Shown: positions 568 to 33,807 of the stretch, in pieces
Numbering within the stretch: the first letter of the stretch is position 1
Layout of the letters: each line of letters opens with the position of its first letter
IMG/VR virus record: IMGVR_UViG_3300021961_000331
Coordinates: 1-33,807 of that record
DNA: 33,807 nucleotides
DNA from: a virus
Direction: 5' to 3' (one strand)
Notes under the pieces: model-generated
Database searches by the model: none
Seen by the model: the letters and a program-made list of their open reading frames with translations, nothing else
Told to the model about the DNA's origin: nothing
Position numbers and translations under genes: made by a program

Positions 568-953
568 TTTGGGAACCTCATTTTTTCTGTCATTTCGCGC
601 AACTTGGCCAACGCTTCCTGTTTGGCTTTTTCGGTTGCAATTTTTTCGTGTAACGTTGGCTGCCTGGTTATCAGCGTTTCAGGCTTGTCAGGAATGCGCG
701 GGCCATCGTTCAATAGTTTTTTGAACGCCAGGGCCGACGGTGGCCGGTCGGGGTTCATGTGCTGCAACGCGTAATCCATCTTTGGCCGGTAAATCAATCC
801 GCGGCCGCATTCGTCAATCCACACCTGGCGAACCAGGTTTGGGTCAACATCGCGCCAATGGTTGGCAAACGTGGCGCCATAAATGGCATTCATTTTGCTG
901 AACACGTAATCAAAGCCGCTGTCGGCATCACAAAAGTCGCTTGCGTTCCACAT
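564..953 (-). CDS. Putative replication accessory protein
   Basis: A 129-aa protein immediately downstream of the DUF1376 gene, which it overlaps by 26 bases. It has a Trp/Tyr-containing helical N-terminus (FANHWRDVDPNLVRQVW), a central RPPSALAFKKLL motif and a Lys/Glu-rich, probably coiled-coil C-terminus. In lambdoid phages the gene after the initiator often encodes the helicase loader or another replication partner. The position suggests a similar role, but no Walker motif is visible, so it is not a DnaC-type ATPase. Role inferred from position only. Confidence 0.6.
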   Translation of the reverse strand: MWNASDFCDADSGFDYVFSKMNAIYGATFANHWRDVDPNLVRQVWIDECGRGLIYRPKMDYALQHMNPDRPPSALAFKKLLNDGPRIPDKPETLITRQPTLHEKIATEKAKQEALAKLREMTEKMRFPK

Positions 954-1674
954 TGGACACCTCCACGGTTTGTTCAGGTTTTGCCCAAAATGGGGCTGGC
1001 TTTGGTGTGGCCAGGCCGCGGGTTAATTCGCCCATCGCGTTTTGCCTGGCTTCCGATGCTGTCACCTGATCTTTTGCCCAACTGGCTTTAAAACTTTGCC
1101 AACCACGGGTGCAACACATCGCCAATGCCTGTTCCAAGGTCATAGCAGCCTTTTGGGCCTCTTTTTCGATGCCAGCCAAAGCCACGGTAGTCACCGGCGC
1201 CCGTTTAGCCTTCCTGATGGCCAAAAACGATTCCCAAACTTCCTGTGAAACGCCGCCAGGCGGGGCGGTGACAACCGCCTTTGTTTTCTTGGGTTTTGTA
1301 TCTTGGGTCTTGGGTCTTGGGTCTTGTATAGCATTGCATTCGGATTGCGGTCGCATTGCGGTCGCATTCCAACGCGCCTGGGCGCTGGCTTTGGCTTTTT
1401 CACTTTTGTCCTGAATGGCTTGAATTTCACGGCCAACACGTTCCGACCACCAACCGCCGTCGATCAATTCAAAAAATTCACGCAACACGTTCGCAATGCT
1501 TTCGGAATGCGAACGCATACGGATCAACCTGGCAATTTCGCCAACGTCTTCCGGTAAAGATTTTTCGTGAAGGTAGCACCAATCAAGCATTCGGCGATAT
1601 GCCAAATCTTCTGATTCGTCCAGGTGCGCGGTGTGACTTTGATAGTCACCAATGTTGAATTGGTAATAGTGCAT
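928..1674 (-). CDS. DUF1376 replication-initiator-like protein
   Basis: A 248-aa protein. Residues 1-90 match the DUF1376 pattern: YYQFNIGDYQSHTAHLDESE, then LAYRRMLDWCYLHEK and the RLIRMRS segment. The family is found in phage and prophage replication regions and behaves as an O/DnaD-like DNA-binding initiator module. A low-complexity linker (about residues 95-135, repeated QDPRPK/TQDTKPK) separates it from a C-terminal helical part containing ALAMCCTRGWQSFKASW, a motif often seen in phage replication proteins. Short tandem DNA repeats encode the linker, as in lambda O where the origin iterons lie between the two protein domains. A strong SD (AAAGGTGGG) precedes the ATG. Confidence 0.8.
   Translation of the reverse strand: MHYYQFNIGDYQSHTAHLDESEDLAYRRMLDWCYLHEKSLPEDVGEIARLIRMRSHSESIANVLREFFELIDGGWWSERVGREIQAIQDKSEKAKASAQARWNATAMRPQSECNAIQDPRPKTQDTKPKKTKAVVTAPPGGVSQEVWESFLAIRKAKRAPVTTVALAGIEKEAQKAAMTLEQALAMCCTRGWQSFKASWAKDQVTASEARQNAMGELTRGLATPKPAPFWAKPEQTVEVSNVERKRLL
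1302..1365. repeat. Tandem repeats inside initiator gene (candidate origin)
   Basis: Three exact 7-bp units CTTGGGT (1302-1322) are followed by two exact 11-bp units ATTGCGGTCGC (1344-1354, 1355-1365). They lie in the linker-coding part of the DUF1376 gene. An inverted repeat GTTCGCA...TGCGAAC flanks at 1489-1495/1508-1514. The position within an initiator gene resembles lambda ori. The repeats could instead be simple microsatellite drift in a disordered linker. Confidence 0.5.
1489..1514. repeat. 7-bp inverted repeat in initiator gene
   Basis: GTTCGCA (1489-1495) and TGCGAAC (1508-1514) form a perfect inverted repeat with a 12-base spacer inside the DUF1376 coding sequence, about 125 bases from the tandem repeats. 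It could be part of an origin or a binding site, or be chance. Confidence 0.4.
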
Positions 1675-1777: not shown

Positions 1778-1936
1778 CTACGCCTTAAACCATTTCGGAC
1801 GCAATGCTTTCAACTGCCACACCCGTGCTGGTGGAACATCGTTCCCCCATTGGCTGACGGCCGCCCTGGTGATTCCCAACAGTTCGGCCAACGCTTTGGC
1901 TGATCCCGCCAGTTTGATTGCTTTTTCTTTGTCCAT
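1778..1936 (-). CDS. P22-Cro-like transcriptional repressor
   Basis: A 52-aa protein: MDKEKAIKLA start, helix-turn-helix ALAELLGITRAAVSQWG (about residues 15-31), then VPPARVWQLKAL. This is the short P22_Cro/YdaS-type HTH layout (helix 2 AELLG, recognition helix RAAVSQW, then VP..R..QL). The stop is the TAG at 1778-1780. The gene opens the leftward early operon. A consensus promoter (TTGACA-N17-TAACAT) places +1 at or beside the ATG, and no SD is visible, so translation is probably leaderless, as with lambda cI from PRM. A likely operator overlaps the -10. No CI-type partner is encoded nearby. Confidence 0.85.
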   Translation of the reverse strand: MDKEKAIKLAGSAKALAELLGITRAAVSQWGNDVPPARVWQLKALRPKWFKA

Positions 1937-1942
1937 CTTTCG

Positions 1943-1971
1943 ATGTTAAGCGGCCTTGCGCCGTGTGTCAA
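1943..1971 (-). promoter_or_regulatory. Leftward early promoter of cro-like operon
   Basis: On the minus strand, TTGACA (complement of 1966-1971), a 17-bp spacer, then TAACAT (complement of 1943-1948). The -35 is perfect and the -10 matches 4 of 6. Expected +1 is about base 1936, the A of the repressor's ATG. Confidence 0.7.
1946..1959. promoter_or_regulatory. Operator-like half-degenerate site O1
   Basis: TTAAG-CGGC-CTTGC is a degenerate form of the TTAAG-N4-CTTAA palindrome found at 2029-2042 and 2969-2982. It overlaps the -10 and the spacer of the leftward promoter, where a repressor would block the cro-like gene. Confidence 0.5.
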
Positions 1972-1992
1972 TAGCAACAAATCCCCTAAAAG

Positions 1993-2006
1993 TTAAGGGG
2001 GCTTTA
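1993..2006. promoter_or_regulatory. Operator-like degenerate site O2
   Basis: TTAAG-GGGG-CTTTA matches the perfect site at 11 of 14 positions. It lies midway between the two divergent promoters, 36 bp from site O3. Confidence 0.5.
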
Positions 2007-2016
2007 CAAATAGTTC

Positions 2017-2045
2017 TTGCAAGGGTTGTTAAGTTGGCTTAATAT
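2017..2045 (+). promoter_or_regulatory. Rightward early promoter PR1
   Basis: TTGCAA (2017-2022), a 17-bp spacer, then TAATAT (2040-2045). Each hexamer matches 4 of 6. It drives the LPD29 gene. The perfect operator palindrome (2029-2042) covers the spacer and the start of the -10. Expected +1 is about 2052. Confidence 0.55.
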
Positions 2046-2094
2046 TCACCCATGCCCTAGCGAATTGCACGGGGTCTTTTAAAAGGAAATCAAA
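2028..2094 (+). repeat. Duplicated early leader, copy 1
   Basis: This operator-promoter-leader block recurs at 2968-3025. Shared parts are GTTAAGTTGGCTTAA, CCATGCCCTA, and GGTCTTTTAAAA(A)GGAAAT just before the start codon. Copy 1 has about 10 extra bases between the mini-ORF and the SD. Bases 2052-2060 read ATG-CCC-TAG at the predicted transcript start. Confidence 0.8.
2029..2042. promoter_or_regulatory. Operator O3, perfect TTAAG-N4-CTTAA palindrome
   Basis: TTAAGTTGGCTTAA, identical in all 14 bases to 2969-2982. Each copy sits in the spacer/-10 of a rightward promoter. Likely bound by the Cro-like protein encoded next to it. Confidence 0.65.
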
Positions 2095-2685
2095 ATGTCA
2101 AACACTCAATATCTCACTTGTGCCGAAACCGCAAAATTGGTTCGCGCTGCCCTCAAAGAATCTTTCCCTGGTGTGAAGTTCAGCGTCAAGTCCAGCACAT
2201 ACGCTGGCGGCGCCAGCATCAACGTTTCGTACATCGACGGCCCAACAGCCGCCCAGGTCGAAGCGGTTGCCAAGGCTTTCCAGGGCGCTTACTTTGACGG
2301 CATGACAGATTACAAAGGCAGCAACTACAACAGCCTGGACGGCCAGCCCGTTCGCTTTGGTGCTGATTTTGTTTTTGTAAGCCGCCGGTTTACTGCCCCA
2401 ATTTTGACCAGCGTTGTTGTTGAAACTTGCAATTACTACGGCTTCGAAAACGAAATTCTGATTGACGGCGGCGGCCAATATTTTGGCGCTTACATCAAAG
2501 CGGTTGGCCCTAACGCTGACAGCGAAGCCCGCGGTTTTAGCACTTCAGACATTGAACGAATTATTCGCCAACGTGCTGGTGAATACAGTATGGATGACGT
2601 GGCCCCAAGCGCCACATTGGCCCGCGTTGCCTTCCAGGGTGACGACGGTTACGGATGGAATTCAGTTGGCCGCATGGCCGCATAA
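2095..2685 (+). CDS. LPD29-domain early protein
   Basis: A 196-aa protein opening the rightward operon. Residues 8-90 resemble the LPD29 domain (large polyvalent protein-associated): a CAETAKLVRAALKESFPGVK start, then SINVSY.DGPT and YFDGMTDYKG. That domain occurs in phage and plasmid accessory proteins, and its biochemical role is not established. The C-terminal half (FVFVSRRF, then SDIERIIRQRAG) is also shared with such proteins. The SD AAAAGGAAAT is strong. As the first gene after a repressed early promoter it may take over host functions, which is inference. Confidence 0.75.
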   Translation: MSNTQYLTCAETAKLVRAALKESFPGVKFSVKSSTYAGGASINVSYIDGPTAAQVEAVAKAFQGAYFDGMTDYKGSNYNSLDGQPVRFGADFVFVSRRFTAPILTSVVVETCNYYGFENEILIDGGGQYFGAYIKAVGPNADSEARGFSTSDIERIIRQRAGEYSMDDVAPSATLARVAFQGDDGYGWNSVGRMAA

Positions 2686-2695
2686 GGGGAACGCC

Positions 2696-2794
2696 ATGAA
2701 CCGCGAACCAACCGATTGGGAAGTTTTGGTGATGGCGCTGGTGGCAGCACCGGCCATCTATGTTTTGATTTGGCTTGCAATGGCCATCTTTTAA
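2696..2794 (+). CDS. Small single-span membrane protein
   Basis: A 32-aa product with a charged N-terminus (MNREPTDWE) and a hydrophobic stretch over residues 10-32 that would span a membrane once. An AAGGGGAACGCC SD precedes the ATG, and it lies between two early genes with tight spacing. Function unknown. Early one-span phage peptides often act on host membranes, but nothing here specifies a target. Confidence 0.6.
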   Translation: MNREPTDWEVLVMALVAAPAIYVLIWLAMAIF

Positions 2795-2804
2795 GGGGAA
2801 CGAA

Positions 2805-2972
2805 ATGACAGTCCGAATTACCAGGGTACATCGCGGCGGCCGCGTGTTCTATGCCGCCACCGTCGGCGGCATTTACCTGGAACGCGCCAGCCTTGCCGAA
2901 TTGCGTGAAGCCATTGCGGTTCGTGAAGGATTTGCAAAATTATTTGCACCACCTGTTGACACCGCAAGTTAA
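2805..2972 (+). CDS. Small early orphan protein
   Basis: A 55-aa protein starting MTVRITRVHRGGR. The ATG at 2805 is preferred because AAGGGGAACG lies just upstream, almost the same SD as its left neighbour. It is predicted to have a beta-hairpin (FYAATVGGIYLE) followed by a helix (SLAELREAIAVREG), a layout seen in small phage proteins of unknown role. Its TAA stop (2970-2972) lies inside the next operator, so repressor binding and translation termination coincide. Confidence 0.65.
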   Translation: MTVRITRVHRGGRVFYAATVGGIYLERASLAELREAIAVREGFAKLFAPPVDTAS

Positions 2973-2985
2973 GTTGGCTTAAAAT
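2956..2985 (+). promoter_or_regulatory. Rightward early promoter PR2
   Basis: TTGACA (2956-2961), an 18-bp spacer, then TAAAAT (2980-2985, 5 of 6). It lies at the 3' end of the 2805-2972 gene and is the best early promoter in the window. Expected +1 is about 2992. Operator O4 overlaps it. Confidence 0.72.
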
Positions 2986-3025
2986 CAAACCATGCCCTAA
3001 CCGGTCTTTTAAAAAGGAAATTGAA
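2968..3025 (+). repeat. Duplicated early leader, copy 2
   Basis: Second copy of the operator-promoter-leader block of 2028-2094. Bases 2992-3000 read ATG-CCC-TAA, at the predicted +1. The stop codon differs from copy 1 (TAG) but is still a stop. Confidence 0.8.
2969..2982. promoter_or_regulatory. Operator O4, perfect palindrome
   Basis: TTAAGTTGGCTTAA, identical to O3. It overlaps the spacer and -10 of PR2 and contains the stop codon of the preceding gene. Confidence 0.65.
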
Positions 3026-3232
3026 ATGAATTCAACCATCACCACCGCAAACCAAATTGCGACATTCACCAACCCTGATTTTGGCATTGCTTCCCTGGTA
3101 ACCCAGGTCAAAAAAGGTTATGCCGTCACGCTGTTGGACACCGACGCCGAAATGGTCGTGGCCACCAAAATTTATCCTGTGGCCATGCTTGCCCAGGCCA
3201 TCAACTACGCCAAAAAAATTGCCAATGTCTAA
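3026..3232 (+). CDS. Small early orphan protein
   Basis: A 68-aa protein behind PR2 with a strong SD (AAAAAGGAAATTGAA). The N-terminus is Thr/Asn/Ala-rich. The centre has alternating hydrophobic segments (KKGYAVTLLDTDAEMVVATKIYP) that suggest a small beta-sheet, followed by a helix. Having its own operator-controlled promoter suggests high early expression. Not recognised. Confidence 0.68.
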   Translation: MNSTITTANQIATFTNPDFGIASLVTQVKKGYAVTLLDTDAEMVVATKIYPVAMLAQAINYAKKIANV

Positions 3233-30030: not shown

Positions 30031-30291
30031 TTAATCCTCCACGACGCAAGCCACGTCGCCTTCCTGAATCAATTGGTGATCTTCCCCGTCGATTTTGTGG
30101 ACGGGCCAATCCAAATACGTGCCATTGCCGTATTTGATCCGTTCGCCAACCTTAACGTCATTCACTTTGAGGCCAATGGCCACAATTATGCCTTCGTTGA
30201 ATTTTTCGGTGTTTTTGACGATCAAAACGTCCGACAAACTTCGGACGATTGGTTTGACCAGGACACGATCATGCAGCGGTGTTATCACCAT
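30031..30291 (-). CDS. GroES-like co-chaperonin
   Basis: An 86-aa protein of the Cpn10 family. PLHDRVLVKP (5-14) and the mobile loop with hydrophobic tripeptide (DVLIVKNTEK) are followed by GIIVAIG, VKVGERIKYG and the C-terminal EDHQLIQEGDVACVVED. It is shorter than E. coli GroES (97 aa), like T4 gp31-type phage versions in being diverged. It would cap host GroEL during folding of the coat protein. No GroEL partner is encoded. RBS AAGGAAACC is shared with the coat gene. Confidence 0.9.
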   Translation of the reverse strand: MVITPLHDRVLVKPIVRSLSDVLIVKNTEKFNEGIIVAIGLKVNDVKVGERIKYGNGTYLDWPVHKIDGEDHQLIQEGDVACVVED

Positions 30292-30502: not shown

Positions 30503-30677
30503 TTGGCAATTTCCCTTCAATTACGCTTTGGTTTAAAGCGCGGGCAATGGCTTCGGCCATAGCGGTAGCCTCGGCTTCGTTCTTACGGTTTTCGCGATGC
30601 TGCGCGGGCGTAATCTGCGGTTCCGCGGTAAATGGCGTCACTAATGGCGCCTGACTTTTTGGCTCGTTCGAGTGCAT
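30495..30677 (-). CDS. Small ORF overlapping the kinase gene end
   Basis: A 60-aa frame beginning MHSNEPKSQAPLVTPF, helical from about residue 27 (NRKNEAEATAMAEAIARALN). It overlaps the last 95 bases of the zeta-like kinase in another frame, which is more than is usual here. An internal ATG at 30560 would give only 21 aa without such overlap. Codon use is acceptable in both frames. Unresolved whether the long or the short version is made. Confidence 0.4.
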   Translation of the reverse strand: MHSNEPKSQAPLVTPFTAEPQITPAQHRENRKNEAEATAMAEAIARALNQSVIEGKLPNG

Positions 30678-31500
30678 CTTGTAATCCTTTCCTCACTTCA
30701 TTTTCCTTCAGTTTAGGCAACTTGTCAAGGCTGCTTAACTGGGCTTTTCCCGCGCCACGGCTGTTGTCAATGACGCGGATTTGAACCTGGGGGTTGTTGC
30801 GGTACTTGGTCGCAATCTGATCGATTACCTGGCGGGCGCCAAGATGCGTTTTCATGTGTTCGGAAAGCGGAACGGTGCGGCCGGTTCCCATTGATTCTTC
30901 CATGCGCCTGGCCCGCTTTAAAGCGCCGTTTACCAGGGCTTCCACGGGGTCGCGGTAGGTGTAAACAATGTCCACCTTGCGTTTGGCGTCCAATGCCTGG
31001 CGAATTTTTTTGTCGGCCGAATCAAACGAATTCATGTTGGTGTCGTACACCAGTTCGGCTTTGCCCAAACGCGGATCAACTTGTTTGGCCATTTCCATGC
31101 CGCTGGTTTTACCCGCGCCCGTGCCACCGGCCGTAAAAACTACGGTTGGGTGGCGATCTTTGGGGGTCGGCTGCGCCAGCCGTTCGGCGTAATACTGTTT
31201 TACAAACGCGCTGGATGGTTCATGCACGTCGGCCGATTTGGTTCGGTCAGCGCGGTAATGTTCGGACAGTTCGCGGGCCACGTCGGTGTTTAACGTGCGC
31301 CCTTGATCCGATTCCATTAACGCTTGGTATTGCTGCACTAGGCCAGGATAGTCGTTTTGCAGCCGCCCGAAATATTCCTGGGTAATAGGATTTTCAGGCT
31401 GGTCGCCCATTTGTGGCTGCGGCGCAAGCGCGGAAAGCCGGTTCGCGACCGGCATTTGCCCTGGCTGCACCGCTGCCATTGCTGACAGCGGCGTGGCCAT
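30583..31500 (-). CDS. Zeta-toxin-like P-loop kinase
   Basis: A 305-aa protein (ATG 31500 in a TAATG junction). After a disordered 40 residues, VVFTAGGTGAGKTSGMEMA holds a Walker A (GGTGAGKTS, 125-133). LVYDTNMNSFD (150-160) and YTYRDPVEALVNGALKRARR follow, with GRTVPLSEHMKTHLGA (208-223). These are the zeta-toxin/chloramphenicol phosphotransferase features; classical zeta phosphorylates UDP-N-acetylglucosamine. No epsilon antitoxin is recognisable beside it. Its late-operon position suggests either lysis-time attack on cell wall synthesis or a virion-delivered enzyme. Substrate unknown. Confidence 0.82.
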   Translation of the reverse strand: MATPLSAMAAVQPGQMPVANRLSALAPQPQMGDQPENPITQEYFGRLQNDYPGLVQQYQALMESDQGRTLNTDVARELSEHYRADRTKSADVHEPSSAFVKQYYAERLAQPTPKDRHPTVVFTAGGTGAGKTSGMEMAKQVDPRLGKAELVYDTNMNSFDSADKKIRQALDAKRKVDIVYTYRDPVEALVNGALKRARRMEESMGTGRTVPLSEHMKTHLGARQVIDQIATKYRNNPQVQIRVIDNSRGAGKAQLSSLDKLPKLKENEVRKGLQDALERAKKSGAISDAIYRGTADYARAASRKP

Positions 31501-31730
31501 TACATTTTGCCGCTGCGGCTGTGGGTGTAGCAAACGCCGCTGCTGCGGCCGCCGTCAAACTTTTTGTCGGCGCCAGTAGCGTCGGCCTTGCCCATTGCAA
31601 TGCCGTTTTTAATCATGCCCTTGCGTTCGCCACCGGCGTCGCTGGCTTTTACGCCGGAAGGTTCTTTTGCATTGCTGCCGTAGCCGTAGCCTTTGGGTTG
31701 TTTCATATCGTTCATGGTTTTCCCTTTCAT
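31500..31730 (-). CDS. Small Gly/Lys-rich orphan
   Basis: A 76-aa frame; the ATG at 31715 has AAAGGGAAA 6 bases upstream and is the more likely start (71 aa). The ATG at 31730 overlaps the upstream TGA. It is low complexity, Gly/Ala/Lys-rich (KQPKGYGYGSNAKEP, then GRSSGVCYTHSRSGKM). Probably disordered and basic. Not recognised. Confidence 0.6.
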   Translation of the reverse strand: MKGKTMNDMKQPKGYGYGSNAKEPSGVKASDAGGERKGMIKNGIAMGKADATGADKKFDGGRSSGVCYTHSRSGKM

Positions 31731-33478: not shown

Positions 33479-33578
33479 GGTCGCCGGTTGCGATAAGTGC
33501 TGCGGTGATTTGGTCGAAGTCAAAGGTTTGGCCCTCTTTAATTTTGTTCAACAGTAAATGGCCCTCATTTCGGGTCAT
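33267..33578 (-). CDS. Small orphan, coupled at both ends
   Basis: A 103-aa frame: MTRNEGHLLLNKIKEGQTFD, then ITAALIATGDLAGWREP, and a less protein-like remainder to its TGA at 33267-33269. Its ATG overlaps the upstream stop by ATGA (33575-33578) and its stop overlaps the next ATG (33268-33270) likewise, which supports translation of this frame. But the +1 frame below residue 35 looks more conserved (DUF7696-like). Its first 27 codons are repeated at 3-82. Confidence 0.55.
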   Translation of the reverse strand: MTRNEGHLLLNKIKEGQTFDFDQITAALIATGDLAGWREPNMVRFLATGMRSQGLVAPVQNSPAREGDEVGQPLVAANDRENRENPRPWCSAYIARRYEQGQK

Positions 33579-33807
33579 GTGTTCTTCTCCTTGAGTTTGG
33601 CTTCAATGGCTCGGGCAAATGAGATTTCTGGCCTTTGGTGTGGGTTGTAGTGATCTCGGGCTACTTCAATAATCTCCTCATCTGTCAGCGGCTTGCGCTG
33701 TGGTGGGGTGGTGTAGAGAGGCTGAACACCGCCATCTCCCATGAAACGCTTTGCTTCTGCAATACGCTCGCCATCATCGGAATAAACCCACTGTTTCCAA
33801 TACGGTG
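33499..33807. repeat. Right copy of terminal repeat, allele B
   Basis: 33499-33614 equals 3-118 and 33702-33807 equals 248-353, all bases identical. The 87-base centre (33615-33701) is unlike the 129-base centre at the left end. Confidence 0.93.
33575..33807 (-). CDS. Partial orphan protein, allele B of the 79-567 gene
   Basis: A C-terminal 76-residue part, open at the window edge. It starts PYWKQWVYSDDGERIAEA, identical to allele A through LYTTPP, then reads QRKPLTDEEIIEVARDHYNP and rejoins the shared ending RAIEAKLKEKNT. It is 14 residues shorter than allele A but in frame. It may be a strain variant of the same gene, or a tandem paralogue. Confidence 0.78.
   Translation of the reverse strand, partial: PYWKQWVYSDDGERIAEAKRFMGDGGVQPLYTTPPQRKPLTDEEIIEVARDHYNPHQRPEISFARAIEAKLKEKNT

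Follow-up and report, generated by a model that had tools for sequence, protein, structure and literature searches.

Cro is usually seen as half of a lysis-lysogeny switch, accompanied by CI and an integrase. The locus studied here raises the question of what a Cro-like protein regulates in a phage where these partners are not recognised, and whether four related palindromes around the early promoters are its binding sites. The window we analysed is the whole IMG/VR record IMGVR_UViG_3300021961_000331 (33,807 nt), from a freshwater phage related to P22. A sequence-only reading of this DNA had proposed that one small Cro-like repressor acts through the four sites on three early promoters, one of them inside an operon, without any CI. 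We put the probability at roughly 85% that the 52-aa P22-type Cro encoded by this phage uses all four sites as operators, turning off three early promoters. The features on which the argument rests are as follows.

928-1674, minus strand: O-like replication gene (DUF1376/primosomal) behind cro, from family matches
1778-1936, minus strand: cro-like gene, 52 aa, P22_Cro family (PF14549 match)
1943-1971, minus strand: leftward PR-type promoter (cro, O-like, P-like), TTGACA-17-TAACAT, from promoter scan and gene content
1946-1959, no strand: predicted operator O_R, TTAAGCGGCCTTGC, over the -10 of the cro promoter
1993-2006, no strand: predicted middle operator O_M, TTAAGGGGGCTTTA, position kept in relatives
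2017-2045, plus strand: rightward early promoter PL1, TTGCAA-17-TAATAT, read from the sequence
2029-2042, no strand: predicted operator O_L1, TTAAGTTGGCTTAA, in the spacer and -10 of PL1
2052-2079, plus strand: PL1 leader hairpin near the predicted RNA 5' end (ATGCCC...GGGGTCTTTT), from covariation in relatives
2095-2685, plus strand: LPD29-domain protein, first gene of the PL operon (PF18847, 88.2 bits)
2956-2985, plus strand: operon-internal promoter PL2, TTGACA-18-TAAAAT, from promoter scan (11/12 consensus positions)
2969-2982, no strand: predicted operator O_L2, TTAAGTTGGCTTAA, in the spacer and -10 of PL2
2991-3013, plus strand: PL2 leader, same hairpin type but weaker (C-C mismatch at the fourth pair), from leader comparison
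3026-3232, plus strand: 68-aa ORF directly behind PL2, from the ORF list

The gene content on the two sides of this region defines its polarity. By family matches, the leftward strand behind cro carries the DUF1376/primosomal O-like gene, a P-like helicase loader and NinB, and the rightward strand carries LPD29, ERF and a YqaJ exonuclease; the family search with the 68-aa ORF at 3026-3232 gave no match. The late genes come next, leftward (terminase, P22-type portal phrog_156, coat, head-closure). With cro, the O-like and the P-like gene on one arm and the recombination genes on the other, the layout is, judged by gene content, that of a lambda/P22 early region in which PR (cro, O, P) reads leftward, PL (recombination) reads rightward and the cI interval is absent. 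The three early promoters of the sequence-only reading, the operon-internal one included, are all supported; its labels PR1 and PR2 do not hold, because the rightward promoters lead into recombination genes and are therefore PL-type, the cro promoter being PR. PL1 scored under the threshold of the promoter scan and was called by reading the sequence; its -35 is kept as TTGCA/TTGACA in relatives. As to the record itself, its termini share sequence (1 to ~120 with 33499-33616, and 248-352 with 33703-33807) around a middle that differs, and it therefore probably represents a circular or permuted genome that is nearly complete and shows microvariation where its ends join. The late region also holds a GroES-like co-chaperonin gene (30031-30291, minus strand, phrog_3188) and the gene of a P-loop (GGTGAGKTS) protein (30583-31533, minus strand), zeta-toxin/kinase-like by motif, for which the PHROG search returned no match.

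The 33,807 bases contain just two exact copies of the 14-mer, at 2029-2042 and 2969-2982. The two degenerate copies reported earlier were recovered at their positions: the one at 1993-2006 matches the 14-mer at 11/14 positions, or the palindrome at 9/10, and the one at 1946-1959 matches the palindrome at 8/10. Neither a perfect TTAAG-N4-CTTAA nor a pair of sites with at least 9/10 matches within 40 bp arose in 200 first-order Markov simulations of the window. The two perfect palindromes are not chance. Sites with up to two mismatches numbered 12 against 7.5 +/- 2.9 expected, which places the weak forms alone at background; they gain significance because their positions are fixed in relatives. 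The operator proposal would suffer if the motif were scattered through late coding DNA. Outside the early region we found a single 9/10 match in the record, TCAAGGCTGCTTAA at 30725, and rejected it as an operator: it lies in the ORF of the P-loop protein and encodes SSLDKL, though it recurs in relatives. In the early region, the 2029 and 2969 sites occupy the spacer and overlap the -10 of PL1 and PL2 respectively, and the 1946 site overlaps the -10 of the leftward cro promoter in the same register. For these three the earlier placement on or beside an early promoter stands; the 1993 site lies between the divergent promoters, in no identifiable promoter core.

The protein that would bind these sites belongs to the P22_Cro family, as had been suspected, with 49.1 bits against PF14549 at a cut-off of 30.2. 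Its AlphaFold (AF2) model has four helices with a helix-turn-helix (pLDDT 79), and the best PDB match of the model is P22 Cro itself (1rzs; rmsd 1.2 A, TM 0.75, probability 1.00, with a Foldseek E of only 0.03). The recognition-helix stretch AAVSQW is identical in the two proteins. Our literature search found no open paper giving a P22 Cro consensus, and we therefore took the P22 operators from that phage's own annotated genome. As a positive control, the annotated OL and OR regions contain TTAAGACTTCTTAA, TTAAGTCATCTTAA and TTAAGTGTTCTTTA. The OR annotation stops where TTAAGTGTTCTTTA does, and the imperfect right end of this P22 site is shared by the 1993 site.

We quantified the linkage between operator and cro from both directions. 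Among 56 distinct Cro-like proteins chosen by protein search alone, independently of operator DNA, 51 had at least one TAAG-N4-CTTA site within 130 bp upstream of the gene and 50 had at least two; shuffling the upstream regions of all 88 distinct Cro genes gave 9.7% and 0.5%, respectively. Selecting by DNA only, with the 17-mer TTAAGTTGGCTTAAWAT, we found a divergent cro within 200 bp in 57 of the at least 118 places listed and a cro within 4 kb in 30 more, and these 30 resemble PL2 among the matches listed. The motif count in relatives that the sequence-only reading had proposed as a check gave a clear answer. Across 14 whole relatives we counted 38 sites matching at 9/10 positions or better in 24 kb of early region (1.58/kb) versus 8 in 450 kb elsewhere (0.018/kb), an 89-fold difference, and several of those eight are one recurring coding site, that at 30725 in the window. 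Perfect TAAG-N4-CTTA sites numbered 26 versus 1. In the Rhodoferax phage P26218, whose portal is 40% identical, the 27 kb read contained no such site cluster.

Three predicted operators, O_R, O_M and O_L, are conserved between the divergent promoters. O_R begins 10 nt away from the cro ATG in nearly all close relatives, and in most of them O_M starts at ~47-57 and O_L at ~74-101. CI bound at OR2 activates PRM, and the conservation of O_M, outside both promoter cores and centred ~52 bp upstream of the predicted PL1 start, could be read as a sign that Cro bound there activates one promoter rather than only repressing. We regard this as quite unlikely: the spacing between O_M and O_L ranges from ~22 to ~37 bp among relatives, unlike a fixed activation geometry, and the 52-aa protein has almost no surface beyond its helix-turn-helix. 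Repression remains our preferred reading.

The bases of the operator also vary with the protein. In O_R the information content of the AAG/CTT columns rises to 2.0 bits, far above that of several adjacent columns in the spacer and flanks. With an A-type recognition helix (TRAAVSQW and kin) the outer base was T in 22/26 O_R and 23/23 O_M sites (TTAAG); with a Q-type helix (TRQAISQW) it was G in 14/17 and 8/9 (GTAAG); with an IY-type helix the site is ATAAG-N4-CTTAT. Fisher's test of this association gave p = 5e-9, a value that overstates independence since much of the covariation follows clades. For that reason we count the apparent link between outer operator base and Cro recognition helix as support, not as proof. 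The match to P22 operators, the fixed sites upstream of 51/56 Cro genes and this covariation together argue for the operator family that had been proposed.

The apparent absence of CI, also claimed earlier, was upheld across 43 records, in which neither the S24 CI-type repressor family (PF00717) nor the integrase family (PF00589) had a match; both matched in control genomes. HTH_3 in this record matches Cro only, and it exceeded the cut-off in just one of the records, from another phage group. A P22/lambda-type CI-Cro immunity switch would place CI opposite cro at shared operators and bring an integrase or lysogeny module; here cro and the first PL gene are directly divergent, and the 43 records gave no PF00589 match. 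The sites might instead be bound by a different dimeric repressor, supplied by the host or by a CI analogue of the phage that escaped recognition, with Cro secondary, and the phage could then be conditionally temperate. P22 CI and Cro do share operators (annotated as C2 sites), several ORFs of the window gave no match in the family search, and a Thiothrix MAG contig (L286) has a cro-like gene and, divergent from it, the gene of a 125-aa HTH repressor, with the exact operator between the two, possibly a picture of the ancestral arrangement. Even so, we consider this very improbable. Besides the family searches just described, the sites track the Cro helix type, and a scan of ~85,000 bacterial and archaeal species genomes brought up just four cro matches, all distant and one of them the Thiothrix contig, and thus no closely related prophage. 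A second, unrecognised regulator in the record is nonetheless possible because several ORFs have no family match.

The operon-internal copy is part of something larger. The two 14-mers sit inside a longer repeat that runs from promoter to start codon and in which a short variable stretch separates 32 nt that are 88% identical from TTTTAAAAGGAAATnnAAATG. Promoter and operator come first in it, followed by a short covarying hairpin where the RNA is predicted to start, and then by the ribosome site. A distal site in promoter register occurred in 13 of the 14 whole close relatives, ~700-1600 bp downstream of cro; two genomes (G028 and G030) have two, and in one (G010) none was seen. The N4 core varies in relatives (TTGG, CGGG, CTAG, CTGG) and is therefore not fixed by recognition alone. 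The common TTGG of the two exact copies could reflect cassette duplication or gene conversion rather than recognition; since the N4 of PL1 and PL2 is often equal within a genome (TTGG/TTGG, CTAG/CTAG, CTGG/CTGG) but not always (CGGG/TTGG), the two causes are not separable from it. That the repeat reflects only the duplication of a strong promoter with its leader, perhaps carried along with a mobile gene block, and that its palindrome is a by-product of promoter sequence that Cro does not bind, would suit the position of both exact copies within it, the overlap of the motif mostly with a -10 and the differing downstream genes among phages, but is very unlikely given that sigma-70 has no need of the spacer half-site AAG, which is conserved at 2.0 bits in O_R, that the middle site is conserved outside any promoter, that the leftward promoter has the same site without the leader, and that the known operators of P22 match.

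The transcripts that start at these promoters have features of their own. Both PL leaders start with a hairpin, AUGCC[C/G]-loop-[G/C]GGUCUUU. In 29/31 unique leaders its fourth stem pair is either C-G or G-C, a figure that none of 10,000 permutations reached; leaders were selected for ATGCC[C/G] and TCTTT, and pairing of the 3' arm was not required. The hairpin may act as a stabiliser or as a nut/put-like element. In other phage groups that share the operator, different hairpins seem to occupy that place. A two-codon minigene at the leader start (ATG-CCC-TAG/TAA/TGA) was set aside as an account of the conserved letters, which the hairpin explains, and some leaders have no stop (GCCGGAAACGGT). 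On the other side, the gap between the cro -10 and the ATG is 6 nt here (1934-1948) and 5-6 nt in 71/72 relatives with a matched promoter, the matching having allowed 3 to 9 nt. Because of this short gap the cro mRNA is predicted to be leaderless, its 5' end coinciding with the AUG or lying no more than two bases from it. A leaderless cro recalls lambda cI transcribed from PRM more than lambda cro. Directly 3' of cro, at 1690-1765 on the minus strand, the Rfam int-alpA RNA (RF02996) matched with 29.6 bits, below the gathering score of 35.8; a match lies at the same position in 7/8 relatives, three of them above gathering (L032, L030, L027). These matches occur in phages without a recognisable integrase, at what we take to be the place of lambda nutR, and the int-alpA-like RNA may belong to the cro/PR transcript instead of to int or alpA.

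Compared with known systems, the locus is closest to P22. It shares the P22_Cro protein with its AAVSQW helix stretch, the TTAAG-N4-CTTAA operators, a PR operon of cro, O-like gene and ninB, an Erf gene in the PL operon, and P22-type portal and head-closure families. It differs from P22 in lacking c2, c1 and integrase, in having OL and OR merged into one intergenic region of ~160 bp, in the location of operators in the spacer/-10 of each promoter, in the extra operator-promoter inside the PL operon, and in a cro predicted to be leaderless and a PL leader that starts with a hairpin. The all-alpha Cro fold is also that of N15, phiKO2 and PY54 (N15 Cro lies at rmsd 1.2 A from the model here), but PY54 and phiKO2 Cro bind a single operator (PMC4997575), whereas several sites are predicted here. 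Moreover, these three phages are temperate and encode a prophage repressor. With lambda the locus shares the divergent PL/PR logic and the turn-down by Cro. Unlike virulent lambda mutants, this phage group carries intact, unmutated operators, and its apparent loss of CI is a stable trait. A literature search for virulent Cro-only phages gave nothing relevant. On the evidence of the sequences, the P22-type Cro operator set is known, and what is new is the CI-less, integrase-less lineage, the fused PL/PR and the operon-internal operator-promoter.

The proposed mechanism would run as follows. Early in infection, host RNA polymerase would fire the leftward PR-type cro promoter (cro, O-like, P-like) together with PL1 and the operon-internal PL2 (LPD29, ERF, YqaJ exonuclease), and the leader hairpin may stabilise or otherwise control the PL transcripts. 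As Cro accumulates, its dimers would bind TTAAG-N4-CTTAA in the spacer/-10 of each promoter and, at a presumed later time, shut off all three, that of cro included. P22 and lambda Cro carry out a late-lytic turn-down, and we infer that the same turn-down is kept here in a phage without recognisable CI or integrase.

The Cro-only arrangement appears to be a variant found across many uncultured phages. With CI and integrase apparently dropped and Cro and its operators kept, early turn-down by Cro would be valuable in lytic growth itself, and the phage group offers natural material to separate that turn-down from the lysogeny decision. The operator alphabet TTAAG/GTAAG/ATAAG versus the A/Q/IY helices provides a data set for studying how repressors and operators coevolve in uncultured phages, and early promoters in phage metagenomes can be sought with the operator as a marker. 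It is conceivable, although unlikely, that these are stable, widespread CI-less phages with Cro as the sole operator-binding repressor, in which lineages with different Cro proteins share the identical 14-bp operator and the Cro of one would silence the early promoters of an unrelated co-infecting phage. If true, this would be an interference system between virulent phages without lysogeny.
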